64,000 bases of DNA, taken from Vibrio navarrensis (GTDB lineage Bacteria > Pseudomonadota > Gammaproteobacteria > Enterobacterales > Vibrionaceae). A program made the translations under genes and the position numbers. The DNA is taken from contig NZ_CP065217.1 in the NCBI RefSeq assembly GCF_015767675.1, positions 3,038,001 through 3,102,000 on the forward strand, given 5' to 3'. The notes below the pieces were generated by a model, which saw only the letters and a program-made list of their open reading frames with translations, searched no databases and was not told where the DNA came from. This document shows positions 3,468 to 23,117 of the stretch, piece by piece (within the stretch, counting starts at the first letter, position 1; each line of letters opens with the position of its first letter).

Positions 3468-3524
3468 ATGGTACCGGTGGGCGGACTTGAACCGCCACTC
3501 CCGAAGGAAACGGATTTTGAATCC
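3468..3524 (-). repeat. Left attachment repeat: displaced 3' part of tRNA-Leu
   Basis: These 57 bp repeat 23061-23117 with a single mismatch (position 3477 versus 23070). They correspond to the tRNA-Leu 3' part from the anticodon loop to the CCA end. The similarity stops inside the anticodon arm, so this is a remnant and not a gene. An inverted repeat ATCAGC-aag-GCTGAT (3528-3542) lies immediately beyond and may be a recombinase site. The copy marks the left end of the 3.5-23.1 kb element. Confidence 0.9.
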
Positions 3525-3957
3525 AAAATCAGCAAGGCTGATCCGTGTACTAACAATCACTTAAAATCATTTCCACACCAGAATTCATGGTAACTTATCG
3601 GCATCAAATTCAAGAATTAACCTGCGCAATATAAACCATTATAACGATTGCGTTTGCACATAGTTCGCCAAGGAACCCTCAACGAACTACAGCTGAAATA
3701 GACGTTTCCATCAAGCCATATGAATCATAGTGTTACGAGATAATGGAAACGGATTTTGAATACAAAATCAGCAAGGCTGATCCGTGTATAAACAATCACT
3801 TAAAGTCATTTTCACACCAGAATCCATGGTAACTTATCGGCATGAAATGCACTGTTAGATAGCGCAAGAATAACCCCATCCAACCATCACGTTTGCCCAT
3901 AGTTCGCCAAGAAACTCTCAACGAACTACAGCTGAAATAGACGATTCCATCAATCCA
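3506..3957. repeat. Imperfect direct duplication at the left end of the element
   Basis: Segment 3506-3718 is repeated at 3745-3957 with an offset of 239 bp. Both copies start with the tRNA anticodon-arm sequence GGAAACGGATTTTGAAT, then ATCAGC-aag-GCTGAT, and both contain a conserved block around 3655-3715 and 3897-3955. The middle of the repeat is more divergent. No gene is seen in 3525-4120. Confidence 0.85.
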
Positions 3958-4120
3958 GAACTCGTCACACAAGCGGAATCCCACAAAAGACCGTAGCTGT
4001 TGTGAGATCATAGCATTAAGTTAGCCATTGGTATTATTAACACTCTCCCTTATAACAGATCTCCTTGCGTGTTCCTTCAAAATTAGTAAAAATCCCTTTT
4101 CTAAAACTGAGAAACGCGAA

Positions 4121-4894
4121 ATGAGTACAAAGAGAACCCAATCAGGCGAAACTACAAGTGATTTAATCCTATCATCACACACCGGAACAAATGACGATCT
4201 ATTTCCTAAAATACTCCAACTTTTTGTAAAAGAGGGGTCGACTATAGCTGATGTTACATACGGCAAAGGAGTATTTTGGAAAAAAGTAGATAAAACAAAA
4301 TATAACATCCACTTTTCCGATATTGATCCTAACGTTAAAGACCAAGATAAAGGAGTCGTTCCCAACATAGACTCCAGAGATCTACCATACGAAAACTCCT
4401 CCCTAGATGCTCTCGTATTTGATCCACCATACATGGAAGGATTCTACAGGAGAAGCGAGACTCATTTAGCAGGCTCATCAAGTCATAGCTCTTTCAGAGA
4501 AGCATACTCTAACGGCACAGCTACAAAACAAACAACTGAACTAAAATACCATGATCTTGTAGTCGATATGTATATGTCATCTGCTCTGGAGGCTCGACGA
4601 GTCCTTAAAGATAACGGTGTATATATCGTAAAATGCCAAGATGAAGTTAGTGCCAACAGACAAAAGCTCAGTCATGTTGAAATTATATACGGACTCGAAG
4701 GGTTGGGATTCTACTGTAAAGATCTCTACGTTTTAACAAGAAACAATAAACCAGTTGTGAGCAAGCTTAAAACTCAAGTTCACGCAAGGAAAAACCACTC
4801 CTACTTTCTTGTTTTTATTAAGAATGCAGGAAAAAAAGGATATTCTAACTGTAGTGACCTAGTAAGAAGCTACTGGGATAAAAAAACAGACTAA
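4121..4894 (+). CDS. DNA methyltransferase, probably N6-adenine
   Basis: The protein has about 257 residues from ATG 4121. A longer frame opens at TTG 4028, but its extra 31 residues look unrelated to a methyltransferase fold. An AdoMet-binding motif I-like segment (ADVTYGKGVFW) precedes the catalytic motif IV FDPPY, the order of gamma or related classes. DPPY is more typical of N6-adenine than N4-cytosine enzymes. The gene converges with the gene at 4965-5627, and a bidirectional terminator separates them. That neighbour looks like a nuclease, so the pair is probably a compact type II restriction-modification system carried as cargo. The target sequence cannot be read from the protein. Confidence 0.8.
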   Translation: MSTKRTQSGETTSDLILSSHTGTNDDLFPKILQLFVKEGSTIADVTYGKGVFWKKVDKTKYNIHFSDIDPNVKDQDKGVVPNIDSRDLPYENSSLDALVFDPPYMEGFYRRSETHLAGSSSHSSFREAYSNGTATKQTTELKYHDLVVDMYMSSALEARRVLKDNGVYIVKCQDEVSANRQKLSHVEIIYGLEGLGFYCKDLYVLTRNNKPVVSKLKTQVHARKNHSYFLVFIKNAGKKGYSNCSDLVRSYWDKKTD

Positions 4895-4899
4895 AAACG

Positions 4900-4937
4900 C
4901 CATTGTTCGGCAATTTAGATTTACTGTCGAACAATGG
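4900..4937. terminator. Bidirectional terminator between methyltransferase and nuclease genes
   Basis: Perfect 10-bp arms CCATTGTTCG (4900-4909) and CGAACAATGG (4928-4937) form a hairpin. T-rich tracts follow on both strands: 4948-4961 on plus, and the run before 4899 on minus. Confidence 0.8.
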
Positions 4938-4964
4938 TATTTACTAGTGATTTTTTTTCCATTG

Positions 4965-5627
4965 TTACTCTTCGTCGATTTCTTGACCTAAAGAATCGTC
5001 TAATAACTCTTCAATATCAGTAGTCCACTCTTCAGATAGGGGATACGTGATCACTTCAGTTGTCGCAAGCAAGTACTGTTGATCTTCCGTACTATATTTC
5101 TTAGAGGTTGTCAGTCGACAATCTCGATTTCTTTTATATGCAAAATCCCATTTACCCGTAAAAGGAAACAAAGGAACTGCGAGTATGTCATAGTCACCAC
5201 GTTTATAGTTCGTGGTTTCCACCACATTTCCATTCGGAAGAGTCACTGGTCGCTTGTCACTAGCGTCATTTTGTACATCTGCTGATAAACTACCTAGATT
5301 GTCATTCCAGCATATGCTATTGGTTTGAATAGATTTATTTTGTATTGTGTACCTTCTTCCATTAAAAACAAAGTCTCTATCAATCTTGTTATTCTCCCGA
5401 TCATGATCATCATGCTTTCTTACGTCATCGATTTCTTGATGAGGCTCAAGAACATGTTTCTCAAACATCTCCTCAGCAATATAACCTAGTATCATCCCTC
5501 TCAAACTTGGAGCTCGCTTTATAGCGTTAACTAAGTCTTCGGGCTCGACCTCATCAATGATATTGATAACGTTATCTCTAGCAGCAACAGCATCTTCATG
5601 ATCGTAATGCTTAAATTTTTTACCCAT
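4965..5627 (-). CDS. Putative type II restriction endonuclease
   Basis: This 220-residue protein has no family I can name with certainty. The middle part reads IDRDFVFNGRRYTIQNKS (about residues 82-99), compatible with a PD-(D/E)XK-like core in which the last position is NK. It is followed by GDYDILAV and a WDFAYKRNRDCRLT-type segment often seen after the core of restriction enzymes. It converges on the DNA methyltransferase gene at 4121-4894, which is the main reason for the call. Both C- and N-terminal parts are acidic. It could instead be another type of effector nuclease. Confidence 0.55.
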   Translation of the reverse strand: MGKKFKHYDHEDAVAARDNVINIIDEVEPEDLVNAIKRAPSLRGMILGYIAEEMFEKHVLEPHQEIDDVRKHDDHDRENNKIDRDFVFNGRRYTIQNKSIQTNSICWNDNLGSLSADVQNDASDKRPVTLPNGNVVETTNYKRGDYDILAVPLFPFTGKWDFAYKRNRDCRLTTSKKYSTEDQQYLLATTEVITYPLSEEWTTDIEELLDDSLGQEIDEE

Positions 5628-6119: not shown

Positions 6120-8984
6120 ATGAACAATGAAAACAAACCTGACCATGTTGAAGCCATAGATAAAGAACTCGACGAATACTTCCAAGCAGAAACCACCGAC
6201 CAAACTAAAGAATCAACCAGCATTGAACTCGACCAATTCCTCACTCAAGAACAAACCGATGAATACTCAAGTAAAGCTGTCGATGATGAGCTCGACATCT
6301 ACTTCGAGAATGAACAGCAGTCACCATGGCAAGCTCTCAAAGGCGATGATGAAGCGGTTCACATTGGTATAGACAGTGAGTACGTCTACAACGCCGAGGA
6401 AAACCGAAACGACATTCTGTCCTATCAGTATTATCTAATCGCAGGTGAACACCACATGAGCGATGTGGTACTTACCCCCGTTGCTGATGTTATCAAGAAG
6501 TCCAGAGCCGCGAACAAAAGCCGTGAAGATGAACTCAAGGCGATTAATCGAATCAAGAAACCTCGTAAGAAATTTGAAGAGTTCTTGGTTGAAGTACTCC
6601 AAACTGCAATGGGGCGCGGATTCATCACAGGATGGCCAAAGAAAATCTACATCTATGCTCACTACCTCAGAGCTGACATGGTGTCATTCGAAGCGTTCTG
6701 GGATACCAGTCAGAAAGCGAAACTGGAAGTCGTCAGAAGCACATTAACCTCCACACGTGGCGCATACGGCATCGACCTAGACGCAGTGGGTAGAACCAAG
6801 CAAGCTTCAGAGCCCGTTCACTTTACAGACAAGAATGGAAAGAAACGTGAGAGTCGTGTCCGCTTTGTAGATACTTTACTACTTAGCCCAGGGCAAAGTG
6901 GACTTGATAGTGCGGGAGAACTCATCGGCATGCCAAAAGAAGTGATCCCAGCTCCATATCGCAAAGACCGAATGGATGAACTACTAGTAGAAAATGAACC
7001 ACTCTTCCTTCGTTACGCATTGAGAGACGCCGAAATCACCGTTAAGTACGGATTGGAAATGCAACACTTCGCCCTCGAAGACATTAAAAAATCACTCAAA
7101 GATAAAGTTCCAGCAAACAGGTTAGATAAACTTCAGTTTAAGCACCTACCATCAACACTGGGTAACTTCTCTGTATCACTATTCAAAGCCCTCACGGGTG
7201 ATAAAGACGATCTGAACCAAGCACTCGGTATGGAGACCAAAACGATTCAATACTGGAATCAAACTCAAGGTCGAGTCATGCAGAAGAAAGAAACTGTCAT
7301 CACTGCTGGTCGTCGTATCTTCGAACAACTGGCAATAGACTGCTTCCATGGCGGAAGAAACGAATGTTACGTGTTTGGTGGCGTAAACTTAGGCGATTAC
7401 AACGATTTCGATCTTGCTACAGCGTACGTCAATGCCTTAATGGACATTAAACCCGTAGACTTCGAGAAAAGCTTCACTTCAACCAATATCAATGACTATC
7501 TCGGTCATAAAATGGGGTTTGCTTACGTTAAGTTTAAATTCCCAGAGCACACTAAGTTTCCATCTCTTCCAGTCAGAACGGACTTATACGGCCTGTACTA
7601 CCCACTAGAGGGCTACTCTTACTGCACCGCACCTGAAATAGAAGTCGCATATAACATGGGGTGTGATATTGAAATTCAGTTCGGTGTTATCGTTCCATGG
7701 ATTGAAGATAAAGAGCCACTTTTCAAAGGCTTTACGGAACTAATCAGAGAGCAAAGACAAAAATACACGGATGAAGGCGATAAATTCAGAGAGAAGCTCT
7801 GGAAGGAGATTGGCAACACACTATACGGTAAATTAGGGCAAGGACTCAAAGGAAAGCGCGGTTTCAACTCATTAGATGGGTTAAGCAAAAATATCCCACA
7901 CTCTCCTGTTACCAATCCATATTTTGCTGCCAGTGCCACAGGGTTCGTTAGAGCGGTTCTCTCAGAGCAATTGGCAGGGATTCATAAACACCATGGCGAC
8001 GACTTTACCGTTGTAAGTGCCACAACAGATGGGTATCTCGTAGACTGTACTGAAGAACAACTCTACGTTTCAGGAACCATTAGCCAACGGTTCAGTAAGA
8101 TATGCGAGCAAACGGGTGACGGTAAGATGATTAAACATAAGCACCATGCTAAACAAATCATCGCAATGAAAACCCGTGGACAAATTACTGGTGAATATGG
8201 CGATACCGAACCTGTCATAGCAAAAGCAGGCGTTAAGCCACCAGAATCAGCCTTATCATCGGCAAAGGATGAAAATGCTTATATGGTCGAACTGTTCTTA
8301 GACCGTTACCCCGGACAGAAGATCCCAAACAACTCATTGATTTCACCTCGTGACATGTACCTTAAAGACATGGACTTGATAGAAATCCAACGAGAAAAGA
8401 CGCTCAACTTAGAGTTCGACTTTAAGCGTAAACCCGTTAATCCTCGCATGACTAAAATCCGCCACCCTAAAGGTCACATCGTCGAGCATATCTACTTCGA
8501 TACCGTACCTTGGAAGAACGAGCAAGAGGGACAACAGACTCGCGCATTGTTTGATGGATGGCGACGCGATAACTGTCTTAAAACAATGGAAGATTGGGAG
8601 AACTGGTTCGACTACAGCAAAACCAAACCGCTACTGAAGGGATCATACATCAAGTATGAGGAAGGCGGTTCACAGGGTGCCCTACTAAAACTCGCGTTAC
8701 GTGCCCTATCTAAAGAGAGCTACGGACTGACCAAAACCATTAATGGTAAGAAACTTACTCTCAAACAACTTACTGAACTGTTTAACAATGCAGGATTTAG
8801 AATTGCAGATAATGCCATTAGTAATTCACGAGACACTGCTTTTCGTCCTAACGTACTCGCTGCAACCCCAAGACTGATACCACTATTACGTTGGTTAATT
8901 GCAACGTTCCCTGACATGGAGATAGAACACTTTTTCCATAAAGACGAACTGGATGAAGTAAAAATGATGCTGAAGAACTCGTGA
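6120..8984 (+). CDS. Primer-independent family B DNA polymerase (piPolB) of a pipolin
   Basis: This 954-residue polymerase is inferred to replicate the element. The N-terminal 80 residues are acidic, with repeated short D/E-rich helices. The 3'-5' exonuclease motifs follow: DSE at 85-87 (Exo I), HYLRAD with Asp186 (Exo II) and YALRD 299-303 (Exo III). Polymerase motif A is FDLATAY with Asp431, motif B is KEIGNTLYG (562-570), and motif C is TTDG (635-638) in place of the usual DTDS. KTRG (684-687) stands where other family B enzymes have KxY. The TTDG and KTRG variants are, to my knowledge, marks of piPolB rather than of protein-primed phage polymerases. All catalytic acids are present. ATG at 6120 follows a GAGAG Shine-Dalgarno-like stretch. 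A tyrosine recombinase in the same tRNA-bounded unit supports the call. Confidence 0.9.
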   Translation: MNNENKPDHVEAIDKELDEYFQAETTDQTKESTSIELDQFLTQEQTDEYSSKAVDDELDIYFENEQQSPWQALKGDDEAVHIGIDSEYVYNAEENRNDILSYQYYLIAGEHHMSDVVLTPVADVIKKSRAANKSREDELKAINRIKKPRKKFEEFLVEVLQTAMGRGFITGWPKKIYIYAHYLRADMVSFEAFWDTSQKAKLEVVRSTLTSTRGAYGIDLDAVGRTKQASEPVHFTDKNGKKRESRVRFVDTLLLSPGQSGLDSAGELIGMPKEVIPAPYRKDRMDELLVENEPLFLRYALRDAEITVKYGLEMQHFALEDIKKSLKDKVPANRLDKLQFKHLPSTLGNFSVSLFKALTGDKDDLNQALGMETKTIQYWNQTQGRVMQKKETVITAGRRIFEQLAIDCFHGGRNECYVFGGVNLGDYNDFDLATAYVNALMDIKPVDFEKSFTSTNINDYLGHKMGFAYVKFKFPEHTKFPSLPVRTDLYGLYYPLEGYSYCTAPEIEVAYNMGCDIEIQFGVIVPWIEDKEPLFKGFTELIREQRQKYTDEGDKFREKLWKEIGNTLYGKLGQGLKGKRGFNSLDGLSKNIPHSPVTNPYFAASATGFVRAVLSEQLAGIHKHHGDDFTVVSATTDGYLVDCTEEQLYVSGTISQRFSKICEQTGDGKMIKHKHHAKQIIAMKTRGQITGEYGDTEPVIAKAGVKPPESALSSAKDENAYMVELFLDRYPGQKIPNNSLISPRDMYLKDMDLIEIQREKTLNLEFDFKRKPVNPRMTKIRHPKGHIVEHIYFDTVPWKNEQEGQQTRALFDGWRRDNCLKTMEDWENWFDYSKTKPLLKGSYIKYEEGGSQGALLKLALRALSKESYGLTKTINGKKLTLKQLTELFNNAGFRIADNAISNSRDTAFRPNVLAATPRLIPLLRWLIATFPDMEIEHFFHKDELDEVKMMLKNS

Positions 8985-9070
8985 TAGTTGGTAACGATAG
9001 CGGAAAACGTGAAGAGAACCGCTTACACACAAACATTTAACTGGTTGATTTTAATAAATTATATCAACAT

Positions 9071-9187
9071 AAATGGATGTTATATCTTGATAGGGGATTA
9101 GGTTAACGATTTCGTGATGGGATTACTGACGTAATCAGAGGGGAATTGCGTGACCTAATTACACTATCAAGATACAACATCCATATT
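9071..9187. repeat. Extended imperfect inverted repeat, candidate origin or structured RNA
   Basis: The outer arms (9071-9093 and 9163-9187) pair over about 20 bp, containing GGATGTTATATCTTGATAG and its near-complement. Inner arms around 9096-9108 and 9148-9160 pair less well. The centre is GATTAC-tgac-GTAATC (9121-9136), so the whole block folds into one long hairpin with no poly-T tail on either strand. Its place directly after the polymerase gene is suggestive of a replication or control function. Confidence 0.65.
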
Positions 9188-9313
9188 TTCTCATAACATG
9201 ATGATTTAAATATCATTATTCGTTCCTAACCGAGTTAACCTATCCCGACCTCTTGCCTTTATCCAATCTTAAAAAGGGGGTCAGTGCTTCAATTTTTTCT
9301 AAATTTAAATTTC

Positions 9314-9327: not shown

Positions 9328-9631
9328 AAAAATAAAAATGAGAATATTGATCCAATTTTCTCTTGACAAATACCGATACATATCTAGCAGGTTCTTAAAC
9401 CAATTCTCCCGAGTGGATGAATATCCCTTTTTAGTGACAAGCAATTCGGTAATACCCTCGTTACACGCCTTTTAAACAACGATACGCCCCCTTGTAATCC
9501 ACTTTTCATTTTTTCACTATAAAACACTCAAAACCATATATAAGTTGTTGTTTTAAAGGGGTTTTCAATATTGACCGAAAACTTAAAAGGGGCTTAAATG
9601 AGGACTCTTTTTAAATATGGAGACAAGAAAA

Positions 9632-10231
9632 ATGACTGATGTAAACAAAGCATTAGAGTTCACTGAAAACCTTTTAAGCGAGTTAGCCGATGCAGTTGTA
9701 AACGCGTTGTCGAACGCGGGTGCTGGTCGTGTTGTTGATAAGGAACTGTGTGAGCAAGCCCAGTACGATATTGGTGCTGCAATGTGCGAAGCTAAACAGC
9801 TCTTTCAAGGAAACAAGAATAAGTTCGGTAAATGGCGTGATGAAAATATTATCGGCAACGGTAAACGTACGGTAGATAAGCGCACGCTTACACGTTGGAC
9901 TAACTTATGTGAATTCGGAACGCTAGATGAATGTCGTAAAGTAGGATTTACCAAAGTTTACAAGTTATCGAGTAAACGCTATGCCCCTTTGCGTGAGCAA
10001 ATTAAACAACACCTAGAACAACACCCGGATGTTGAATCCGACACTATCAATGAAATGTTCAACGATTTTGCAACTCAATTAAAAACAGAGAAGAAACAGA
10101 CCACCCCCGTTGTGAATGATGACTTAGTTGACAAGGTATCGGAACTGGAAGCTCGCCTCAAAGAGCTAGAGCAGGAAAATGCCAACCTACGTCAACAGTT
10201 AGAAGGTCAACCCACTCTTGAAGCTGCGTAA
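9632..10231 (+). CDS. DUF3102-like protein with C-terminal coiled coil
   Basis: I use ATG 9632 because GGAGA sits seven bases before it, giving about 199 residues; an in-frame ATG at 9617 lacks such a site. Residues about 45-75 (IGAAMCEAKQLF and FGKWRDEN) resemble DUF3102, a family often on plasmids and phages and linked to ParB-like functions. The last 45 residues form a clear heptad coiled coil (VSELEARLKELEQENANLRQ). The rest is basic and helical. A role in maintenance, partition or replication of the element is plausible but unproven. It opens a run of three plus-strand genes after the structured intergenic region. Confidence 0.6.
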   Translation: MTDVNKALEFTENLLSELADAVVNALSNAGAGRVVDKELCEQAQYDIGAAMCEAKQLFQGNKNKFGKWRDENIIGNGKRTVDKRTLTRWTNLCEFGTLDECRKVGFTKVYKLSSKRYAPLREQIKQHLEQHPDVESDTINEMFNDFATQLKTEKKQTTPVVNDDLVDKVSELEARLKELEQENANLRQQLEGQPTLEAA

Positions 10232-10291: not shown

Positions 10292-10762
10292 ATGTCAACC
10301 GAAGTAAAAAAGAACACGGTGAATTTATTCAGTGTCAAGTTACAGGTGTCAACGAGTATCTTGGCATCAATCAATATCACTGATAGCAATATCAGTGTCA
10401 GAGCAGCGAGCGGTAAACAGCTAGCTCATTTGACTCTCAAAGATGAAGAAAGTGAGCAAAATCTCGATACGCTATTTGCTGACCTTGAGAAGCTTTGTAT
10501 CCGAGACGCGAATTACTGGATAACCCTCCCAACAGGTAGTTGGGTGCGGAAAAACGCCATTCTAGGATATGAATGTCACCTTAGTGAAAAATATCAAGGA
10601 CTTATCCTGAGAACTCAAGGTAACCGGATTCTTTCATTTATTCCCTGTGATGATCTAGATACACAGTTAGTGATCAAACAGGAAATTCAGAAGGCTGCAG
10701 CAGCCTCATCACCGTCCCGTCGTTACAAACCGACTTGGAACTTTTATCAAAACGCAGTTTAA
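10292..10762 (+). CDS. Hypothetical protein, 156 residues
   Basis: ATG 10292 follows a good AAGGA ribosome site. I do not recognise the family. The protein seems mainly beta-stranded in its middle part, with ITLPTGSWVRKN around residue 77 and a glycine-rich turn, and has a short basic, proline-containing C terminus. There is no signal peptide or membrane segment. It lies 60 bp after the DUF3102-like gene and 34 bp before the next gene, so the three probably form an operon. Confidence 0.65.
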   Translation: MSTEVKKNTVNLFSVKLQVSTSILASINITDSNISVRAASGKQLAHLTLKDEESEQNLDTLFADLEKLCIRDANYWITLPTGSWVRKNAILGYECHLSEKYQGLILRTQGNRILSFIPCDDLDTQLVIKQEIQKAAAASSPSRRYKPTWNFYQNAV

Positions 10763-10796: not shown

Positions 10797-11066
10797 ATGA
10801 ACATGTCTATCTATGATTTAATCGTTAATGCTTTCACCGCTGAAGCAATTCGCACTAACCAGAACCGCCAAACTCGCCTTCGTGAGGTACGTAAAGTTGG
10901 TCAGAATATCGAGTCGAAAGGTGGCAAGATCCAACACTGGGATCAAATCCTTGATGAGCTTGAAACCGCGCTGGTGCACGACTATGACACTAAACGCGAT
11001 TCTTTCGGTTACAAGGAGACAGCGAAGCGCTTGAAGCAGGTGATTAGCGAAGTCACTGGTCACTAA
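10797..11066 (+). CDS. Hypothetical small helical protein, 89 residues
   Basis: ATG 10797 follows TTGGAGT, with a second possible start at 10803. The protein is charged and predicted helical throughout (TRLREVRKVGQNIESKG, AKRLKQVISEVTGH), with no membrane segment and no known motif. It ends a three-gene plus-strand run and converges with the gene at 11091-11855. Its basic character suggests a nucleic-acid or partner-binding role, but this is a guess. Confidence 0.6.
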   Translation: MNMSIYDLIVNAFTAEAIRTNQNRQTRLREVRKVGQNIESKGGKIQHWDQILDELETALVHDYDTKRDSFGYKETAKRLKQVISEVTGH

Positions 11067-12065: not shown

Positions 12066-12473
12066 CTAAATCGCAAAATCCTCTAGGGACTGGCCATTAT
12101 TCAATGCTTCCTGAATCGCAGCAGGCGTTCGCCCCTGCCCCGTCCAGGTTTTTTCCTGACCTGAAGCATCAGTATATTTATATTTCGCAGGCCTAGGTTG
12201 ACGTTTAGCTTGTGTCTTAGCAGGCTTGTTCGAAGAAAGGGCCGAGATTAACTCGTTCACATCCAGACCTTGTTCCGTGATTTGTTTAGCTATCGCCGCT
12301 AACTGAGCTTCTTTCTCCGCTTGCTCCTCACGGATTTTCGCCTCTTCTTCTCGGCGTTCTTCAATCACTGTAGTGAATTTACCGTATGCTTCCTCTAGCT
12401 GCTCCATGGTTAAATCGCGAGCAAAAGCACGAAGACTACGCAAATTGAGTAACGTTTTAATAAGTTCGTTCAT
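12066..12473 (-). CDS. H-NS-like nucleoid-structuring protein
   Basis: The protein has 135 residues from ATG 12473, which follows GAGG at normal spacing. A frame opening four codons earlier overlaps that site and is less likely. Residues about 1-60 form the oligomerisation coiled coil (LRSLRAFARDLTMEQLEEAYGKF). The C-terminal domain ends KTWTGQGRTPAAIQEALN, the classic H-NS AT-hook-like DNA-binding loop being TWTGQGRTP. H-NS proteins silence AT-rich horizontally acquired DNA. A copy on the element could moderate its own cost or antagonise host H-NS. It has its own terminator. Confidence 0.93.
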   Translation of the reverse strand: MNELIKTLLNLRSLRAFARDLTMEQLEEAYGKFTTVIEERREEEAKIREEQAEKEAQLAAIAKQITEQGLDVNELISALSSNKPAKTQAKRQPRPAKYKYTDASGQEKTWTGQGRTPAAIQEALNNGQSLEDFAI

Positions 12474-12549
12474 TGTAAACCTCATAAATACAGCCCGTGT
12501 ACGTATTTATCCGGGCTATTACATCATCAATAAAAAGTAAGAAACTAAA

Positions 12550-14103
12550 TCAATTTACTTCAGTTCTATTTCTACCATTATTCTTAGCTTTATAAAGAGC
12601 TTGATCTGATTTTTTTATCACATCATCAATTCGTTCAGCCAAACCTTCCCAAGACGAAATTCCTATTGAAATCGTGATGTTTCCAACTGTCGGGAATGAA
12701 TATATTTCAATAGACTTACGTATTCTCTCTGCTGCTTCAAATGCTCTGTTTAAATCCGTATTAGGTAAGAAAATCATAAATTCTTCTCCTCCGGCTCGAC
12801 AGAGAACATCGTGCTCCCTAGCTTGGTTTTTCATAAGTTGTGAAACATTCTTAAGTAATTCATCACCTACGTCATGACCATATGTATCATTAACTTTTTT
12901 AAAATAATCAACATCCAGAGCAAGAACTGAAAATGGAATATTCTCAAGACGGAAACTTTCGATTGCTTTATCTAAACCACGTCTATTCAAAAGTCCAGTC
13001 ATTGAATCGGTTAAACTATCAGAATGAAGTTTTTCTATCGTATTAGACACGATACTAAAAGCTCGTAAGAAACTTATTTTTAAATGCGAGGCTTCAAAAT
13101 ACCACGGTTTGATCTTCTTCAAGTCATCCATTGTCTTTACATGACTTTCGAAATTTCTAACAGCGCTGGCCAGTTGCCAAAGTGGCCTAGAAATGAAGAT
13201 AGATGACACCCAAATTAGTAAAAGCGTTAGTATGCCAATTGGCAGTGACTCTAGAAATACTTTCCACATTTGTTCGTCAAGAGTAGAGAGCGTTAATTGC
13301 TTTGACTTTTGAGCAACAATCCCCCAACCTGCATTCTTCACCGGAGCATATCCTGCAAGCATTTCCACCCCTTGAGAGTTAAAAATATCCTTCCCTCCAA
13401 AATCTCCTTGGATAACATCGTTAATAACTTCATTATTAACGATAACTTGGCCTATTCTTCGCTTATCAGGATGGTAAATGAGTGTATGATTTCTATCAAC
13501 AACGTAAAGATATGACCCATCTTTATAACCATGCTGCCCCAATAATGTGGTTAGGATATTTTTCTTTTCCAAGTAAATTGTTCCACCAACATACCCTAAA
13601 TACTCCCCTGAAGAAGAAAAAATTGGATAGGAAATGCTGGTTAAATAGTTGCCTGCTGGTGACACAAAGGGATCAGTGATGATTGGCGCTTGAGCCCTTA
13701 AAGACTGAAGGGACCTTTCACTAGTCAATTTAACACCTTTAACCTGTACAGTTTCAGGTGAAACGGCAACAATGATCCCTTCTGTATTAACGATAACTAC
13801 TGAGTTAAATGAATCAGTTTGAGTACGGAGACGCTCTGCTTCAAGTTCGAGCACCTGTGAGTTATTCATTTTAGAACTGAGAACATGCGCACTAAATTTT
13901 AGTTGCGAAAAGGCGGATTCGATAAAAGCGTCCGTCATTTCTGCCATTTTCTCTGCGTATACGCGATTCGACTCCATTGTGTTGTTGACAATCAAATCCC
14001 GTTGAACTTTATAGATGGAGTAAAATGCATTAAAAAGGGTAATAACTACGCTGAATACACCTAAGATTAAAATCAATTTTCTTAAATTTAATTTTTCAAA
14101 CAT
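12550..14103 (-). CDS. Membrane diguanylate cyclase with dCACHE sensor
   Basis: This 517-residue protein probably makes cyclic di-GMP in response to an external ligand. TM1 lies at about 9-30, a periplasmic double-CACHE sensor at about 35-280 and TM2 at about 284-306. A linker leads to the GGDEF domain at about 360-515. The signature is GGEEF at 438-442, an active variant. The inhibitory I-site RxxD is present as REHD 429-432, five residues upstream. The gene stands alone on the minus strand within the element, upstream of the H-NS-like gene, and could alter host biofilm or motility behaviour. The ligand is unknown. Confidence 0.92.
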   Translation of the reverse strand: MFEKLNLRKLILILGVFSVVITLFNAFYSIYKVQRDLIVNNTMESNRVYAEKMAEMTDAFIESAFSQLKFSAHVLSSKMNNSQVLELEAERLRTQTDSFNSVVIVNTEGIIVAVSPETVQVKGVKLTSERSLQSLRAQAPIITDPFVSPAGNYLTSISYPIFSSSGEYLGYVGGTIYLEKKNILTTLLGQHGYKDGSYLYVVDRNHTLIYHPDKRRIGQVIVNNEVINDVIQGDFGGKDIFNSQGVEMLAGYAPVKNAGWGIVAQKSKQLTLSTLDEQMWKVFLESLPIGILTLLLIWVSSIFISRPLWQLASAVRNFESHVKTMDDLKKIKPWYFEASHLKISFLRAFSIVSNTIEKLHSDSLTDSMTGLLNRRGLDKAIESFRLENIPFSVLALDVDYFKKVNDTYGHDVGDELLKNVSQLMKNQAREHDVLCRAGGEEFMIFLPNTDLNRAFEAAERIRKSIEIYSFPTVGNITISIGISSWEGLAERIDDVIKKSDQALYKAKNNGRNRTEVN

Positions 14104-14611: not shown

Positions 14612-14860
14612 CTACTTAGCAGTGCACTTTGTTGCATCCGTTTCTTTACCGTTCAGAGTTCCGCATACATCAGCTTGCCACTGCACAATGACACCATAAG
14701 CCGCTGTATTCTGAGTGCCAGGCTTACCGTTCCACTTCGATTCAAGCAGTTCTTTCATTTGTGAAATATCACCCGGATTACCGCCGAGCGTACCGCCAGC
14801 GAATGATGAGGTGGTAGCGAATAGACAAGTTAGACCTAGCAGGATGATTGATTTTTTCAT
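14612..14860 (-). CDS. Small secreted protein with a cysteine pair
   Basis: An 82-residue protein with a clear Sec signal peptide (MKKSIILLGLTCLFATTSSFA, cleavage after FA near residue 21). The mature part of about 60 residues has two cysteines (VCGTLNG and TKCTAK) that could form a disulfide in the periplasm. A GGAAATAA ribosome site precedes ATG 14860. I do not recognise the family. It lies upstream of the small glycine-rich gene, and a terminator separates them. Confidence 0.65.
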   Translation of the reverse strand: MKKSIILLGLTCLFATTSSFAGGTLGGNPGDISQMKELLESKWNGKPGTQNTAAYGVIVQWQADVCGTLNGKETDATKCTAK

Positions 14861-15118: not shown

Positions 15119-16009
15119 ATGCGTAGCATGAAAGAGCATGACACCCTAGCGAAAAGACTTGGTATTATCCTGACCCGTTTGAATACGGGAGAACGGTTAT
15201 ATCTGGAAGAATTGAGTCGAGAATTCGGTGTGAGTGAACGAACTCTACAACGGGATTTCAATGAGCGTTTAAATTACCTCCCTATTCAACGCGAAGGTGC
15301 GTGTTATTTTCTTGACCCAAAGGTTCTGGGTAGGCAGACCAACCACGAAATATCAACGTTACTCGCCAACATGGGACTCGATACATTGTTTTCGGGTAAG
15401 CACTATCTGAGTAACGGTGTGCTCAACAACAAATCGACGCCGCCGTTTCTATTCAAGAACCCGCACATCGAAGACATCAGTGATTACTCCAATATGTTCG
15501 AGAAACTTATCGAATCGGTCCAGAGGCGAAATGTCATCAGCTTTACCTGTGAAGGGGTGACTTACGATGAGTTTCATCCCTACCGCTTGGTGAATGAATA
15601 TGGATTGTGGTACGTGGCAGGGACTCAGAGAAACCGCCTAGAGTCACTCAGAATCGTGAAGATTCGGGATTTAATCTGCTACGAAGATAAATACTCTCCC
15701 GACCCTAGCGTTGAACAAAAGCTCACTGGTCGAGGATATGAAGGGGAGTTACTCAATCCCGTTGAGGTTCTTATACAGATGAGCAGTAAAATGACCGACG
15801 CATTCTTGAATGACAGTAATACTGACGACTTCCAAGTATTGAAAGAACTGGATTCGGGCAGCCTGCTTATCAGCCACCAGACCAAGAACATTCCTCGGTT
15901 ACTACGTCAGCTCAAAGCGTGGCTTCCTCATGCCGAAGTGCTCTCACCTGACTGGATTCGTTACTTGTTGAAGCAAGAGTTACAAACCTACCTGGACTCA
16001 ACCAAGTAG
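15119..16009 (+). CDS. HTH-WYL transcriptional regulator
   Basis: This 296-residue protein has an N-terminal winged helix-turn-helix (about residues 10-60, LEELSREFGVSERTLQRD) and a WYL domain at about 130-215. The WYL signature reads HPYRLVNEYGLWYVAGT, with a basic cluster at RNRLESLRIVKIRD. A WCX-like C-terminal region follows. WYL regulators sense ligands or nucleic acids and often control defence loci and mobile elements. It stands alone, so it may be the element's master regulator. ATG 15119 and 15128 are both possible starts, as neither has a strong ribosome site. Confidence 0.9.
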   Translation: MRSMKEHDTLAKRLGIILTRLNTGERLYLEELSREFGVSERTLQRDFNERLNYLPIQREGACYFLDPKVLGRQTNHEISTLLANMGLDTLFSGKHYLSNGVLNNKSTPPFLFKNPHIEDISDYSNMFEKLIESVQRRNVISFTCEGVTYDEFHPYRLVNEYGLWYVAGTQRNRLESLRIVKIRDLICYEDKYSPDPSVEQKLTGRGYEGELLNPVEVLIQMSSKMTDAFLNDSNTDDFQVLKELDSGSLLISHQTKNIPRLLRQLKAWLPHAEVLSPDWIRYLLKQELQTYLDSTK

Positions 16010-16630: not shown

Positions 16631-17092
16631 ATGTCTATTCCATTCAATAAATTAGATTGGTTACACAATGGCTGTCAAAGTGAAAAAATCGCCAAATGTG
16701 CAGCAGCAGCTCATGCACATGAAGCGATTACTACAATCGCCACTTTCTATGCTGACGAAGACCATTACACTATCGAAGCAGGTGCTGAATACCTAGAAAA
16801 CTATGAAGGCCAAGAAGTATTGTTTCTAGAGTTCAAAGCGTATAGCGATTGTGAACATTCTCGCTCTATCGCCATCATCTACGAGAAAGAAGATCTAGTG
16901 ATGCACTGTGTTGAGTTTTCATTTGGAGGCGAGGATAAAGAGGAATACTTTGAGCCAGTTTCTCCAATGACTGTTAAGGGGTTCTTTAGTTACCTGAACA
17001 CCTTGCCTAATATCAAGAAGCATGTACTACCTTCGAGCCTGGACGAAAAAGAGCAACTATCTTTAAGTATGCTTGAGGAACTGTCTCAATAG
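16631..17092 (+). CDS. Hypothetical acidic protein, 153 residues
   Basis: ATG 16631 lies 10 bp after an AGGAA site. The protein is acidic, with LEFKAYSDCEHSRSIAIIYEKEDL in the middle suggesting beta strands and a charged C terminus. It has no signal peptide or transmembrane segment, and I do not recognise the family. It sits alone on the plus strand, between the 41-residue gene and a terminator-bearing intergenic region. Confidence 0.6.
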   Translation: MSIPFNKLDWLHNGCQSEKIAKCAAAAHAHEAITTIATFYADEDHYTIEAGAEYLENYEGQEVLFLEFKAYSDCEHSRSIAIIYEKEDLVMHCVEFSFGGEDKEEYFEPVSPMTVKGFFSYLNTLPNIKKHVLPSSLDEKEQLSLSMLEELSQ

Positions 17093-17350: not shown

Positions 17351-17507
17351 AATAACAAAACACCAGAACAAACCAACCAAACTCGTTAAAATTAACGCTC
17401 CCTTCCTTGGTGTTTCCACCGTCCATCGCAATCCAGCAACGCCATCCCCTCTGAATCCCGAAGGCAACGGATTGGGTAAACGTTGCTAAAACTTGCCCCA
17501 ATGAAAA

Positions 17508-17627: not shown

Positions 17628-18059
17628 CTAATCCACCGTGACTTTTATCTCATCGAACACGCCCATTTCGACGTAGCTAAGAAAGTTGGATTCCCACATC
17701 GAATAAAACTCAGCAACGTCATTACTCGTTATCGACAGCTCCGGAACATAGGAAAAACTTGCGGTTCCAGATGAGAAGTTAAAGTCCACCTCTTTAACCA
17801 GTTCGGGATAAGGACCATCGCAATACGCAAAGTCAGTGATGTAATCAAAGATCCACTGGCCGTTGCAGTGGACAAGTCTGATTTCAACAGGATGAAAACC
17901 ACCATTTTCCGAACTGTAGGATGAATCTCGGAAGTTAAACACGACCGATTGGATCATGGGTGTCCATTTGCCTGATTCGCTGATCACTCGGTTTAAAGCA
18001 TCTTGAAGATCGACACTGACAGGCAGCAGTAATCGCTCAACGTCAAAAGTTAAGTTCAT
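17628..18059 (-). CDS. DUF2787 family protein
   Basis: This 143-residue protein matches the DUF2787 pattern common on Vibrio accessory elements. It has VVFNFRDSSYSSENGGFHPVEIRL (about residues 39-62), WIFDYITDFAYCDG, then PELVKEVDFNF, and ends near MWESNFLSYVEMGVFDE. The biochemical role of the family is unknown. It is the last gene of a minus-strand run (int, GIY-YIG-like, two unknowns, DUF2787) and has its own terminator. There is no signal peptide or membrane segment. Confidence 0.85.
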   Translation of the reverse strand: MNLTFDVERLLLPVSVDLQDALNRVISESGKWTPMIQSVVFNFRDSSYSSENGGFHPVEIRLVHCNGQWIFDYITDFAYCDGPYPELVKEVDFNFSSGTASFSYVPELSITSNDVAEFYSMWESNFLSYVEMGVFDEIKVTVD

Positions 18060-18160: not shown

Positions 18161-18661
18161 TTATTCAGCTTTGGTTTCAGAGTCCACGATAGACAGAAGT
18201 TCATCACGACGTTGCTCGTAGTCAGGCGCTAGAACGTGGAGAAACACCGATTTTTCCGACTGGATGATAAGACCAAGCCCCCTGCAAACTCCGCACATAA
18301 AACCCGCGTTGTTCGCTGACTGTCCTGAAAACACACACTTCATCACAGAGCTCTTGAACGACTTATCACCCTGCACATCCAGAACAGCGGTGATATCTTT
18401 AAGCGGGATCCATTCCTTGCTGTGTAGACCGCCACCTTCATTGCCCGACATGCGGATATAGAGCTCGGTTTCCTCGTCATGTAAGGCGATTTCATAGAAC
18501 ACATGGTTCTCTGTTTTCGGTGATAGCTTTTTAGCTTTGCCCTCGCGCACGATATTAGTGAAATGGTCTACTGGTTGATCGTCAGTGACCGTGACTTGTT
18601 CATTGCCTTCTACGATTTCAGGTTGAACCGTTTCTTGTTGTTGGTTTGATTTACGTGCCAT
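18161..18661 (-). CDS. Hypothetical protein, 166 residues
   Basis: ATG 18661 follows AGGAGG, an excellent ribosome site. The N-terminal 35 residues are polar and probably disordered, followed by a beta-rich part (HVFYEIALHDEETELYIRM, then HSKEWIPLKDI). CGVCRGLG near residue 122 gives a CxxC pair that might bind metal, though only two cysteines are close together. The acidic C terminus is helical. I do not know the family. It lies between the unknown gene at 18706 and the DUF2787 gene in the same direction. Confidence 0.65.
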   Translation of the reverse strand: MARKSNQQQETVQPEIVEGNEQVTVTDDQPVDHFTNIVREGKAKKLSPKTENHVFYEIALHDEETELYIRMSGNEGGGLHSKEWIPLKDITAVLDVQGDKSFKSSVMKCVFSGQSANNAGFMCGVCRGLGLIIQSEKSVFLHVLAPDYEQRRDELLSIVDSETKAE

Positions 18662-18705
18662 AGGACACCTCCTTTAAGATGGAACTATTCAGGTTTAATT
18701 TGGTT

Positions 18706-19089
18706 TTAAGATTCAGCTTGGTCAGCTAACTTAGCGACAGGGAACGTTGGACTGTTGATTGGAGCGCAGCAGTACACACCAGCGCCTTCCATGGTTACGA
18801 TGGCAACCGCTAGCAACCAAGGACAATCATCGTCGTTTAACAACAGCACCCATTCTGGGTAATTAGTAACAAAGCGAAGGAAGTGCAGATCTTCCTCAGA
18901 TTGTTCACTCAAGGCTTCGTCGGTATCGGACTCCTCAATCAAGTACAAGGTCGTACCGACTTCATCCCAGAATGCTTTGGTGTTTTCTTCATCACCGAAT
19001 GGCTCTATCAGGTGTTCGAGTAGTTTTGCTTTCACACCATCAGGCATTGGTAGTGATTGAATGTCTTCAAACTTGTTTACTGTTTTCAT
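18706..19089 (-). CDS. Hypothetical acidic protein, 127 residues
   Basis: I place the start at ATG 19089, preceded by AAGGAA. A longer frame to 19179 runs through the terminator of the upstream gene and is unlikely. The protein is acidic and helical (LLEHLIEPFGDEENTKAFWDEV), followed by a hydrophobic stretch (WLLAVAIVTMEGAGVYCCAP) that may be a buried core strand-helix. The family is unknown. It starts just after the terminator of the GIY-YIG-like gene, so it probably has its own promoter. Confidence 0.6.
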   Translation of the reverse strand: MKTVNKFEDIQSLPMPDGVKAKLLEHLIEPFGDEENTKAFWDEVGTTLYLIEESDTDEALSEQSEEDLHFLRFVTNYPEWVLLLNDDDCPWLLAVAIVTMEGAGVYCCAPINSPTFPVAKLADQAES

Positions 19090-19115
19090 CGTGAATTTCC
19101 TTCTAATAATGAAAA

Positions 19116-19148
19116 AGCCCCTGTTTAGCTCATCGCTAAACAGGGGCT
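19116..19148 (-). terminator. Terminator after the integrase operon
   Basis: Perfect 14-bp arms (19116-19129 and 19135-19148, AGCCCCTGTTTAGC and its complement) have a 5-nt loop and T-runs on both sides. It ends the int/GIY-YIG-like unit. Confidence 0.9.
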
Positions 19149-19166
19149 TTTCTAATATGTATTGCG

Positions 19167-19586
19167 TTATTCGGACCAATTAAACTTGTAGTTCAACGGC
19201 GGTAGCTCGTAATGTTGTCGTACATACTCATTGAGCAGTTTACCTTCCAATGTATATGCATCTTCCTTCGTGTTGCATGATTTCCAGCACACATAGAGAG
19301 TATCGATGGGAAATACATCCTCAAAGTTAAAATTACGATATCGCCATCCAGCCATATGACCTTCTTGTCTAGTTCCGGTAGCGCAACTTATAAAAGCACG
19401 AACTCGAAAGTTTAATCTCTCACTTTCACCGATATCCAGAATCCCATGCTCATCAACACCAACGGCTCGACTGAGCTCTTTCTCCGCAGCAATGATGTAC
19501 ACTCCCGGTCCCTTGGGTATCGAATTTATGTCAACAATGGACAGTAATTCCCAGTCAGTCCAATCGGACCAATCATCGTATTTCAT
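19167..19586 (-). CDS. GIY-YIG-like nuclease-fold protein
   Basis: This 139-residue protein has features of the GIY-YIG fold: GPGVYII (residues 26-32), then ILDIGESERL (about 49-58) in place of the YIG strand. An arginine follows in NFRVRAF, and a helix with a possible metal-binding glutamate is at YTLEGKLLNEY. In this fold the second tyrosine is replaced (LDIG), so nuclease activity is uncertain. The gene overlaps the integrase gene by 14 bases and shares a terminator, so the two are co-expressed. A role in excision or DNA processing of the element is an inference. Confidence 0.65.
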   Translation of the reverse strand: MKYDDWSDWTDWELLSIVDINSIPKGPGVYIIAAEKELSRAVGVDEHGILDIGESERLNFRVRAFISCATGTRQEGHMAGWRYRNFNFEDVFPIDTLYVCWKSCNTKEDAYTLEGKLLNEYVRQHYELPPLNYKFNWSE

Positions 19587-20856
19587 TTACATCTCTCTGT
19601 AATTCATTGGCATTATCTCTCGAATCCCAATGTATCTCCGGCTTCGCAGTCACCATATCCGACAATCGTGAACCAATTTCGCGCCTACGTCCAACTGTCA
19701 GCTTCGAATAGCGTCTTGTTGATGACAGGTCAGCATGATTGAGCTGCTTGGCTATGTCGTGTAACGAAACACCTTGTGATGCCAGAAGACTACCAACAGT
19801 ATGCCTTGCACTGTGCAGGGTTAGATTCGCTTTATCTCCGGGTATGTCGGGCAGTCCCATCTTGGCTTTGATAGCCTTGAAAGCATGCCTAGGTTGTCCT
19901 ACTGGTTTACCCTTTTTGCGTCCAGGAAAGAGATACGGATTATTCGCCACATGAGGCACTGACCTCAAAATATCAAGCATGTAATCACTCAGATAAATAA
20001 CGTGGCTACTACCGTTTTTCGTATGAGGGATAGTGAGCGATTTCTCTTCCCAATTCACATCGGATTTCAAGCGTAAACGCAGTTCTTTATCCCTCGCGCC
20101 AGTCAGAAACAGCAGAACTAAGTACGCACCAATGCTCTTATCCTCATGGTTCAGAGCGTGACCTATGAACTCCTTTAGCTGTGATTCGGATAAGTAGCCA
20201 GTGCGAACGTTATCTTCTTTTAACAAGCTCACTTTGTCCGCGATAAGTGGCGCATCCATCAACTTGTATGCCTGACGATTAATAGTTTTCAATAAGGCCA
20301 AAACGCGATTTATCGAAGCGGGAGCATACGGAGTTCCTTTAATAGTCACAGTATTCTGCATCTCCATTTGGACTTTGATGATATCGGCGGCGGTTAGGTC
20401 ATGAATCGATATGTGATGGATAGACTTTGCTAAACGAAATCGCGCTGCGTCGTCCTTCCAACTGCGTTTCTGTTTAGCCAGTGGCAGGTAAACTTCATCA
20501 AAAAACCGAGCTAGGGTCATTGTCTTCTCGGTAGTCTGATTGTCACGCTCAAGCTTTGGATCAATACCTTCAATAATTTGCTGGCGATACTCTTTGGCTG
20601 TCTTGCGTAATGTGGCGAGGTCAGTTTCAGGGTGCTTACCAAGACCAATGCTTGCCTTTTTACTTGTTACCGGACTGGTATAACGCAGCAGGAAGCGTTT
20701 CCCGCCAGATTTACCCACTAAGCAGCGAACACCAGTAGGTAAACCAGAATCCTTCATAGCGGACAGATTGACTTCGTAATCGGTGGATTTTGCAGTTGAG
20801 GGGTTGGGTTTAAGATTATTGAGGAAAGTAGTAGTGAGTCGTTGTAATTTGCTCAT
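19573..20856 (-). CDS. int: Tyrosine recombinase (integrase) of the element
   Basis: This 427-residue recombinase has the complete catalytic set: Arg255 (TGARDKELR), Lys280 (HTKNGSSH), His348 and Arg351 (HSARHT), His374 (LNHADLSST) and the nucleophile Tyr383 (RRYSKL). An N-terminal DUF4102-like arm-binding region covers about 1-100 and a core-binding SAM-like domain about 110-210. It probably catalyses integration into, and excision from, the tRNA-Leu gene 2.2 kb away. The overlap with the GIY-YIG-like gene shows a shared transcript. Length and residues are intact, so it should be active. No excisionase is recognised. Confidence 0.95.
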   Translation of the reverse strand: MSKLQRLTTTFLNNLKPNPSTAKSTDYEVNLSAMKDSGLPTGVRCLVGKSGGKRFLLRYTSPVTSKKASIGLGKHPETDLATLRKTAKEYRQQIIEGIDPKLERDNQTTEKTMTLARFFDEVYLPLAKQKRSWKDDAARFRLAKSIHHISIHDLTAADIIKVQMEMQNTVTIKGTPYAPASINRVLALLKTINRQAYKLMDAPLIADKVSLLKEDNVRTGYLSESQLKEFIGHALNHEDKSIGAYLVLLFLTGARDKELRLRLKSDVNWEEKSLTIPHTKNGSSHVIYLSDYMLDILRSVPHVANNPYLFPGRKKGKPVGQPRHAFKAIKAKMGLPDIPGDKANLTLHSARHTVGSLLASQGVSLHDIAKQLNHADLSSTRRYSKLTVGRRREIGSRLSDMVTAKPEIHWDSRDNANELQRDVNEIR

Positions 20857-20978: not shown

Positions 20979-21629
20979 TCAATCACTAGATTTCGTTGAC
21001 AGCTCTTGAGGTATGACAGGTGAAGTTTGTCCTTCTACCTTTGTTAAATTAGGTGTCACATCATTGATTTTTGATTCTGTTTTTTCAGGTATATTTTGGG
21101 AACTTGTATTACCAATATCAGGCACCTTCTCACCCATACAAAAAATCAACACTGTTAAAATAAGTAAAACTCCACCGATCCCTAAATAAAAAATCTTTGC
21201 TTTCGTTGTACTTCTGACATTTTTAAATCCCAGGATACTGACAGCGCTTTCTTCACCAATCTTTCCCGTTAGATTAATATTAGGTAATTGAGTCTTTATT
21301 TGTTTCTCCATCTCAATCCCTTTGAGCACAGCCCCTTTTAGAAGGGGGTGATACCAATAAACATCTACTAAAAAAACCAGCATCCAAACAATAAAAGAAC
21401 CAAGGGCAAGAAAGGTGGCAACAGGAATATTATATCCAACCACTTCAGCTTCATATTGGGATTTTAAGCTTACACCAATTGCACTGATAAAAGCAGAAAC
21501 GATTAATAATCCAAAGTTTCTAACCTTCATTTCAAGGTCGTTAAAGTGTTGTTGAACATCAACTATTTTCTTCCATACTTCCACATTTAGTTTCAAATAC
21601 TCTAGATCAATGTCTTTTTCATCACTCAT
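20979..21629 (-). CDS. Membrane protein of the HAD-linked cassette, intact copy
   Basis: A 216-residue protein with a cytoplasmic N-terminal helix (LKLNVEVWKKIVDVQQHFNDL). Predicted membrane segments lie at about 38-56, 68-88 and 143-163, and the C-terminal tail is Ser/Thr/Pro-rich. The helix followed by paired membrane segments loosely recalls SLATT-type effectors, but I cannot assign it. The start overlaps the stop of the HAD gene by four bases, so translation is coupled. The second copy at 1-2025 is broken by an IS, which makes this the only complete copy in the window. Confidence 0.8.
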   Translation of the reverse strand: MSDEKDIDLEYLKLNVEVWKKIVDVQQHFNDLEMKVRNFGLLIVSAFISAIGVSLKSQYEAEVVGYNIPVATFLALGSFIVWMLVFLVDVYWYHPLLKGAVLKGIEMEKQIKTQLPNINLTGKIGEESAVSILGFKNVRSTTKAKIFYLGIGGVLLILTVLIFCMGEKVPDIGNTSSQNIPEKTESKINDVTPNLTKVEGQTSPVIPQELSTKSSD

Positions 21630-22498
21630 GAATCAGCACCTTTAAACATTTGAAAATTAAATATCTCTAATAACTCTGAGAAACTATCTACCGTATAAGT
21701 TGGTGGGATATGATGATAATTCTCTTTAATTCTCTTTTCTCGTTCTACATCTTCATCAGTCCAATGAGTAACAGCCCTCAACAACTCATAACCTTCGGCA
21801 TTATTTTCAAAATGAGTAGTACCATATCTAGCAAATACATCTGTAACACATGCCTGTTGCGCCATCTCAATGTCTTTCATTTCACTATCACCGATGTAAA
21901 CACAATCTTCTACATCAGCCCCAAGGTCATTTATAATATCTAGTAACAACTTCGGGTTAGGCTTCGTCTCTCCTTCGGGAGTGTGTTTTGGCTTGGTTAG
22001 CGAAAAACTGAACTTTGTCCCTGAGCCTAGTTCCTCAGGAAGTTCGTGGTCTGGCGGAGAGAACAAGTAATCAATGTAGTTATCCAAACCCAGTTTCTTC
22101 AGTCGATATGAAGTGTAGTATGACTTAGACTCTGTATACGCAATAACTAGGACACCAATATTTTTTAAAGTTTTAAGAGTATCTTCCACTGTAGGATATA
22201 AACAGAGGTGTTTTCTTCGTTCTGACCTAAATGCATGAATAGCTTCATCTAGCGCTTCATTGATCCCATCTTCAGAACCATACATAGCAAGTAAAGACGG
22301 TAAATTTTGAAGTAAGAAGGCATACTCGGCAGTGCCGTGTTCTTGGTGAATTTTCTTCACTTCAGGAAGGATCACGTCACTACTTAATCCTGTAATCTCG
22401 TACACCTTATCAAACATCGCCGAGTTACTAGCATACCAAATGCTAAACCAGTCAAATAAAGTGTTATCTAAATCGGTAATGAGTACAGTTTTTTTCAT
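21626..22498 (-). CDS. HAD-superfamily hydrolase, inner copy
   Basis: This 290-residue protein has motifs DLDNT (Asp9, Asp11), YTES, KPNP and IGDSEMKD, giving a complete HAD active site with a probable helical cap. The substrate is unknown; small-molecule phosphates or nucleotides are usual for the fold. It is translationally coupled to the membrane-protein gene. It is nearly identical to the copy at 2022-2894, with scattered substitutions that mostly keep the frame and chemistry, suggesting selection on the protein. The cassette is the gene pair closest to the tRNA end of both stacked elements. Confidence 0.85.
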   Translation of the reverse strand: MKKTVLITDLDNTLFDWFSIWYASNSAMFDKVYEITGLSSDVILPEVKKIHQEHGTAEYAFLLQNLPSLLAMYGSEDGINEALDEAIHAFRSERRKHLCLYPTVEDTLKTLKNIGVLVIAYTESKSYYTSYRLKKLGLDNYIDYLFSPPDHELPEELGSGTKFSFSLTKPKHTPEGETKPNPKLLLDIINDLGADVEDCVYIGDSEMKDIEMAQQACVTDVFARYGTTHFENNAEGYELLRAVTHWTDEDVEREKRIKENYHHIPPTYTVDSFSELLEIFNFQMFKGADS

Positions 22499-22779
22499 TT
22501 AACTACTCTAATCTAAGTCGTGTGAATCAATTCTCCCGACAGGTTAACACTAGAGAGCTACCATTCAAAGGTAAGCCACTATCATCCACGACTGAATTAG
22601 ATAAGTAACACCAAATGCCATACTTCCAAAACACTCAAAATGATAGTTGAGTTGATATCCCCAACGCCCTTACCACACACACCGCAAAACCTCTCATTGC
22701 AAATCGACTTTCTACAATCCATCAAAACGATCAATAACCACATAGCAGCCAAACCAGAAGCGCATAGCACCGTAAAGTC

Positions 22780-22798
22780 ACCATGGTACGACCATGGT
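22780..22798. repeat. Paired ACCATGGT palindromes, inner copy
   Basis: Two ACCATGGT octamers with spacer ACG, matching 3177-3195. They lie about 260-280 bp from the tRNA-derived repeat in both elements. Confidence 0.6.
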
Positions 22799-23020
22799 TC
22801 TTCCAGACCGCAACCCTTGGCAATACTAGCTTGCGAGTTAGCAGTCACCGGAGTTTGTTGGATTTACTAGGATTCTCTTGCGCACAGATTCGTCATGTGA
22901 TGAACCATGAATGGACCATGGGAGATTTTTCAAGGCGGATAAAGTGAGTCTATTAGGGCGAGAAAAGGGGCGATAGCAGAAAAGGAAAACTGAGGTAAGC
23001 TTTTGATTAGCCTAGAAACA

Positions 23021-23050
23021 ACAAAGCCCCGACTGTCGTCGAGGCTTTGT
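23021..23050 (-). terminator. Terminator of tRNA-Leu
   Basis: Arms of 13 bp (23021-23033 and 23038-23050) pair with one mismatch on the minus strand, followed by TTGTTT. It lies just after the tRNA CCA end. Confidence 0.85.
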
Positions 23051-23060
23051 CATATGAATC

Positions 23061-23117
23061 ATGGTACCGATGGGCGGACTTGAACCGCCACTCCCGAAGG
23101 AAACGGATTTTGAATCC
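23061..23117 (-). repeat. Right attachment repeat within tRNA-Leu
   Basis: This 57-bp copy forms the 3' part of the intact tRNA gene and repeats 3468-3524 with one mismatch. The crossover that inserted the element lies within this identity block. Confidence 0.9.

Follow-up and report, generated by a model that had tools for sequence, protein, structure and literature searches.

A piPolB-encoding element in tandem with a polymerase-less relative at a tRNA-Leu gene of Vibrio navarrensis

We analysed a 64,000-nucleotide stretch of Vibrio navarrensis (the window; contig NZ_CP065217.1, C1:3038001-3102000) and searched the host genome of 5.1 Mb in three contigs. At window positions 3468-23117 lies element 1, which spans 19.6 kb between direct repeats and encodes a DNA polymerase of the primer-independent piPolB family, a tyrosine recombinase (Int) and cargo genes. 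In the Vibrio chromosome it forms a two-element array, of which it is the member nearer to the tRNA gene: immediately upstream lies a second element without a polymerase (element 0), whose integration module closely resembles its own and which shares its left repeat. We estimate at about 90% the probability that element 1 is an integrated pipolin placed in this way, with the life cycle proposed below. The initial annotation had likewise called it a pipolin, but the adjoining element, the exchange of modules and the partner of the polymerase had escaped it. The features are as follows, with the methods behind each call in brackets (ORF, open reading frame).

1..3467, no strand: right end of element 0 (DNA self-comparison)
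about 67-1825: DDE insertion sequence splitting the transmembrane (TM) protein gene of element 0, with an 8-bp flanking duplication
2022-2894: HAD gene of element 0
3468..3524, +: attL of element 1 and right end of element 0, 57-bp direct repeat (repeat and genome search)
4028..4894, +: DNA methyltransferase, cargo (Pfam, PHROGs)
4965..5627, -: 220-aa ORF adjoining the methyltransferase, candidate restriction nuclease by eye (homologue and family searches)
6120..8984, +: piPolB-family DNA polymerase, 954 aa (Pfam, homologue search, tree, motifs)
9617..10231, +: p204, with a coiled-coil C-terminus (Pfam scan, locus comparison)
10292..10762, +: p156, piPolB partner family, 156 aa (locus comparison, iterated search, genus survey)
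10797..11066, +: p89, small ORF after p156 (locus comparison)
12066..12485, -: H-NS-like protein (Pfam)
12550..14103, -: dCache-GGDEF diguanylate cyclase, cargo (Pfam)
14612..14860, -: p82, small conserved protein adjoining WYL (locus comparison)
15119..16009, +: WYL/WCX transcription regulator (Pfam)
16631..17092, +: p153 (genome comparison)
17628..18059, -: DUF2787 protein, integration module (Pfam, locus comparison)
18161..18661, -: p166, integration module, phrog_28971 (PHROGs, locus comparison)
18706..19179, -: p157, integration module, phrog_32947 (PHROGs, locus comparison)
19167..19586, -: 139-aa ORF between p157 and Int, no family match (Pfam, PHROGs, locus comparison)
19573..20856, -: Int, tyrosine recombinase, 427 aa (Pfam, PHROGs)
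20979..21629, -: membrane protein, PADLOC 'Hydrolase-TM' (PADLOC)
21626..22498, -: HAD hydrolase, PADLOC 'Hydrolase' of the Hydrolase-TM pair (Pfam, PADLOC)
23061..23117, +: attR, 57-bp direct repeat, 3' part of tRNA-Leu (repeat search)
23062..23146, -: tRNA-Leu(CAA), integration target (tRNA scan)

The 57-bp repeats described initially at both ends were found again (3468-3524 and 23061-23117); they are 98% identical, with one mismatch, and the right copy forms the 3' part of tRNA-Leu(CAA). In the whole-genome search, a 147-base end query matched at both repeats and at two other places (77%). The G+C fraction per kilobase is 0.36-0.46 inside element 1 versus 0.45-0.55 to the right of it. At the left end (3506-3957), a unit occurs in two copies at 239 nt spacing, the second of which holds 17 nt of the att core. 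A tRNA-Leu-like core at 17446-17486, between p153/WYL and DUF2787, matches att at 17 of 18 positions (40 mononucleotide shuffles gave at most 15), and a copy of it lies in element 0 (L003 15504-15544); the surrounding 41 nt match at 97-100% in the genomes G193, G226, G096 and G112 and, whole or in part, at 78-88% in several others. This core is possibly a relic or an accessory site.

The polymerase matches Pfam DNA_pol_B_2 at 27.0 bits (cut-off 25.8) and carries DSE (residue 85), YALRDAE (299), NDFDLATAY (428), KEIGNTLYG (562), TTDG (635) and KTRG (684), which we take to be exonuclease and palm motifs. TTDG and KTRG, together with three exonuclease motifs, had originally been read as marks of a primer-independent rather than a protein-primed family B polymerase. 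Of the best 120 of 282 homologues, all 120 have TTDG and 116 have KTRG; in the tree set, TTDG is present in 54 of 55 rows that are not references (the exception is a Fusobacterium plasmid). KTRG is present as described but is not diagnostic, because all seven Vibrio polymerases of clade B in the tree set lack it. The tree is a quick one with flagged long branches and an unsure deep order; one half joins the polymerase to bacterial piPolB homologues, among them those of E. coli, Aeromonas and Buttiauxella, and the other half contains clade B, the plasmid polymerases and the pair formed by phi29 and PRD1, whose inner branch has a length of 2.44. Placement inside a protein-primed clade, which would have spoken against the original call, is thus not what the tree gives, subject to its deep branching. 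On this evidence the polymerase belongs to the piPolB family, and primer-free priming is a predicted property. Downstream of the gene lies a 47-nt inverted repeat (9062-9195); the stretch 9040-9210, taken as single-stranded DNA, has a folding z of -7.2, and the inverted repeat is not general among relatives.

Int is the element's own tyrosine recombinase, as first proposed (Phage_integrase, 2.6e-20). It closes a module, DUF2787-p166-p157-Int, with homologues that keep this gene order at other piPolB loci, that of E. coli included; p166 homologues occur in at least 26 of the 39 compared piPolB loci, a lower bound because several loci are cut by contig ends. The E. coli pipolins (PMC7385651; L018, L153) have a piPolB that is 38.6% identical over 872 aligned columns and oriented, as here, towards the tRNA end, and they share the tRNA-Leu site, a tyrosine recombinase, the module and the WYL gene; in L018, the matches to element 1 are 1e-39 for DUF2787, 3e-35 for p166, 8e-16 for p157, 3e-115 for Int and 3e-71 for WYL. 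Att repeats are also reported for them (PMC7385651). They differ in having a second recombinase and a helix-turn-helix gene before the polymerase, with the partner gene upstream, whereas element 1 has a single recombinase, p156 downstream and, as array neighbour, an element of the same integrase family. The polymerase of the circular Staphylococcus epidermidis plasmid pSE-12228-03 is homologous and has both TTDG and KTRG, but it is only 25.6% identical over 668 aligned columns, and genes for a relaxase and for a protein of a recombinase family lie on the plasmid; PMC9710591 lists S. epidermidis as a host of plasmid pipolins. A piPolB-family polymerase, a tyrosine recombinase of the kind found in integrated forms and att-like direct repeats, of which one overlaps a tRNA gene, are thus all present in element 1, along with accessory genes common to E. 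coli pipolins, a criterion of our own that lies outside the published definition. The pipolin identity of element 1 is supported, since its polymerase groups with bacterial piPolBs, away from phi29 and PRD1, and E. coli pipolins share the DUF2787-p166-p157-integrase module.

The DNA upstream of position 3468 repeats the right end of element 1 over 5.4 kb in three blocks that are 88-90% identical, plus 0.4 kb at 78%. Element 0 has WYL, DUF2787, p166, p157, Int, HAD and TM genes and no polymerase; its WYL protein is 38% identical to that of element 1, and DUF2787, p166, p157 and Int are 89-96% identical. Its TM gene is interrupted by an insertion sequence of the DUF4277/DDE type. The gap between the left-hand neighbour gene, predicted from its translation to encode an HD-GYP protein, and tRNA-Leu is 34.6 kb here versus about 0.75 kb in G120 and G041, so that the shared repeat is preceded by about 15 kb belonging to element 0 with its cargo. 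As read from translations, an IS3-type element and genes for a GFA-type protein and a second aconitase are probably part of this cargo; the aconitase-like gene (L003 9024-11744) is 44% identical to a gene at C1:1563093 of the same genome. A second array lies at tRNA-Leu(CAA) in G227, from another genus of the same order (C1 4538001-4597998, L154-L156), where partial copies of the tRNA number four and the genes for WYL, DUF2787, p166, p157, Int and polymerase are each present twice, with an internal stop in one polymerase; the tandem arrangement is not a single accident. For E. coli, pipolins adjoining a prophage are described with three att repeats in PMC7385651. In the array, relatives share an integration site, and this could plausibly provide the substrate for the exchange of modules recorded by the trees.

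Among 227 genomes of the genus, 15 contain piPolB. The gene is uninterrupted at 14 of its 16 loci, carries a stop at one and is ruined at another, in G209. Between element 1 and G112, G193, G226 and G096, the DUF2787, p166, p157 and Int proteins show 82-96% identity, yet the polymerases of these genomes are only 32-37% identical to that of element 1. These four, with G205, G011 and G038, are the Vibrio clade-B pipolins, which share the tRNA-Leu(CAA) site wherever the DNA compared includes a tRNA and have integrases 93-96% (the first four) or 67-84% (the last three) identical to Int; they differ in that their polymerase, across the group 32-37% identical, lies on the Int strand with a second integrase beside it. 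Trees of the polymerase and of the integration module conflict, each rejecting the grouping of the other; in the module tree, the branch concerned has support of 93/100, just under the tool's mark of 95. The replication and integration modules thus have different histories, and comparison with relatives suggests that the polymerase is swapped between elements and is accompanied by a small partner gene of an uncharacterised kind. Bimodular pipolins whose defence cargo can be exchanged are reportedly the subject of a 2024 article in Nucleic Acids Research, the likeness lying in modularity and defence cargo, and we do not claim modularity as new.

The same conflict of histories would fit a generic tRNA-Leu island with an independent integration module, into which a piPolB cassette fell without any part in mobility. 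The integrase of element 1 (E<=1e-100) occurs in 13 genomes at 14 loci, nine with and five without piPolB (element 0, G160, G202, G046 and G108), four of the five being in genomes without any piPolB. However, homologues of p166, p157 and Int accompany piPolB at each of its 16 loci in the genus (at one as remnants), including those whose integrase is no more than 36-39% identical, and the E. coli locus has the module too; we consider this explanation unlikely.

The candidate partner is p156, encoded 1.3 kb downstream of the polymerase. It is a member of an uncharacterised family whose genes lie beside piPolB and which in the genus is present in exactly the 15 piPolB genomes. In E. coli, the partner gene, which encodes 212 aa, lies upstream of the polymerase on the same strand, 46 nt before its annotated start; an overlap of the two arises only with the earliest start codon. 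The role of piPolB for its element is called unclear in PMC9710591. Given the exact 15-genome co-occurrence, the same-strand position in E. coli and a confident predicted fold, p156 offers a direct handle on what piPolB does, and the partner family and the tandem arrays deserve follow-up. From a weak fold match, one might guess that p156 binds DNA; a LytTR DNA-binding fold is at most a candidate for it. At slightly worse than even odds, we tentatively propose that p156 founds an unrecognised family, a near-obligate partner of primer-independent polymerases across proteobacterial pipolins including those of E. coli, needed for starting or regulating piPolB, for example by origin binding, and that tandem tRNA-Leu integration is a workshop in which polymerase-partner modules are exchanged.

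For the integrated pipolin as a whole, we propose a hypothetical life cycle in which (i) Int would recombine the two 57-bp sites, excising a circle and regenerating one site, as the anatomy suggests; (ii) the circle would enter tRNA-Leu(CAA) of a new host, and entry beside a resident relative would create tandem arrays; (iii) the polymerase, assisted by p156 through DNA binding or regulation, may copy or maintain the circle or aid host DNA-damage tolerance; (iv) WYL and H-NS would keep expression low; (v) the methyltransferase/nuclease pair, the HAD-TM pair and the diguanylate cyclase would serve as host-benefit cargo; and (vi) adjoining elements with similar modules could act as a recombination substrate for swapping polymerases and cargo. 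Several points weigh against this picture. Excision and primer-free activity are predictions, and the groupings tested in the tree conflict were named after earlier trees had been seen. No partner is found at E<0.1 in 7 of 55 piPolB loci, and of 12 genomes from the order that have a long piPolB match, 2 lack it; a direct profile comparison of p156 with the Enterobacteriaceae form gives no link (probability 1.4, E 0.04), the link coming from the iterated search only. The polymerase side of element 1 may be rearranged, because p156 lies downstream and the polymerase on the strand opposite Int, unlike in Vibrio relatives. The left boundary of element 0 is uncertain, since the whole-genome end search detected no left repeat for it.

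Decay into a relic, with a fossil polymerase and nothing that moves, would suit element 0, which is split by an insertion sequence and has no left site, as well as the ruined copy in G209; for element 1 we find it improbable, as its polymerase, Int and p156 are all open, its repeats are nearly identical and a V. parahaemolyticus polymerase is 97% identical to its own.

Phage structural or conjugation families, whose absence had been asserted at the outset, did not rise above noise in the scans of 19 element ORFs against Pfam and 20 against PHROGs; a head-scaffold PHROGs label on the p204 coiled coil (E 0.0095) was treated as a chance match. Relaxase and type IV secretion genes of an integrative conjugative element were not among the 19 Pfam-scanned ORFs, and no terminal-protein family was recognised in either scan. 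Three related elements (G112, G044 and G011) likewise gave no structural genes among the 33 of 40 listed ORFs (>=90 aa) with family matches, which are of integrase, helicase, methyltransferase, restriction-enzyme and polymerase types; this covers all 25 Pfam and 25 of 44 PHROGs families, the listed ORFs being those other than one 391-aa ORF of G112 that crosses a stretch boundary. A defective prophage or phage satellite with a protein-primed polymerase is accordingly very improbable: size, integrase, tRNA site, a closest solved fold in phi29 polymerase, HAD-TM pairs known from P4-like satellites and matches to the PHROGs families, built from viral sequences (p166 3e-27, p157 4e-13, DUF2787 5e-41, methyltransferase phrog_24333 1.9e-64), would fit it, but the polymerase has zero matches among 50,697 phage records at E 1e-5, p166 has none there either, a search of IMG/VR that reaches close relatives only confirmed no polymerase match, and the tree places the polymerase elsewhere.

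Of the cargo listed initially, the methyltransferase, H-NS, GGDEF with dCache and WYL/WCX were recovered by Pfam; the nuclease paired with the methyltransferase stays a candidate by eye, with 346 homologues and no family match above a cut-off. Related elements carry restriction systems of BglI-, SfiI- and HsdM-type families. The HAD and membrane proteins both match PADLOC models (6e-132 and 1e-63) and form a predicted Hydrolase-TM defence pair; according to PMC9122126, T7 is inhibited by such a combination of a HAD-like hydrolase and a transmembrane protein. Beside p156, p204 has no relative among the other loci compared and p89 weakly matches (8e-5) an ORF adjoining the Salinivibrio piPolB; p153 is present in 4 of 12 compared genomes. 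The p254 reading frame contains three tandem repeats of 42 bp (11286-11411). A 69-kb contig (JAQTWB010000006.1) bears two piPolB loci, L025 and L026, with equal match span and identity and identical partner sequences. Upstream of the array lies a cluster of nine tRNA genes with Phe, Thr and Asn repeats (L002 12832-15961).
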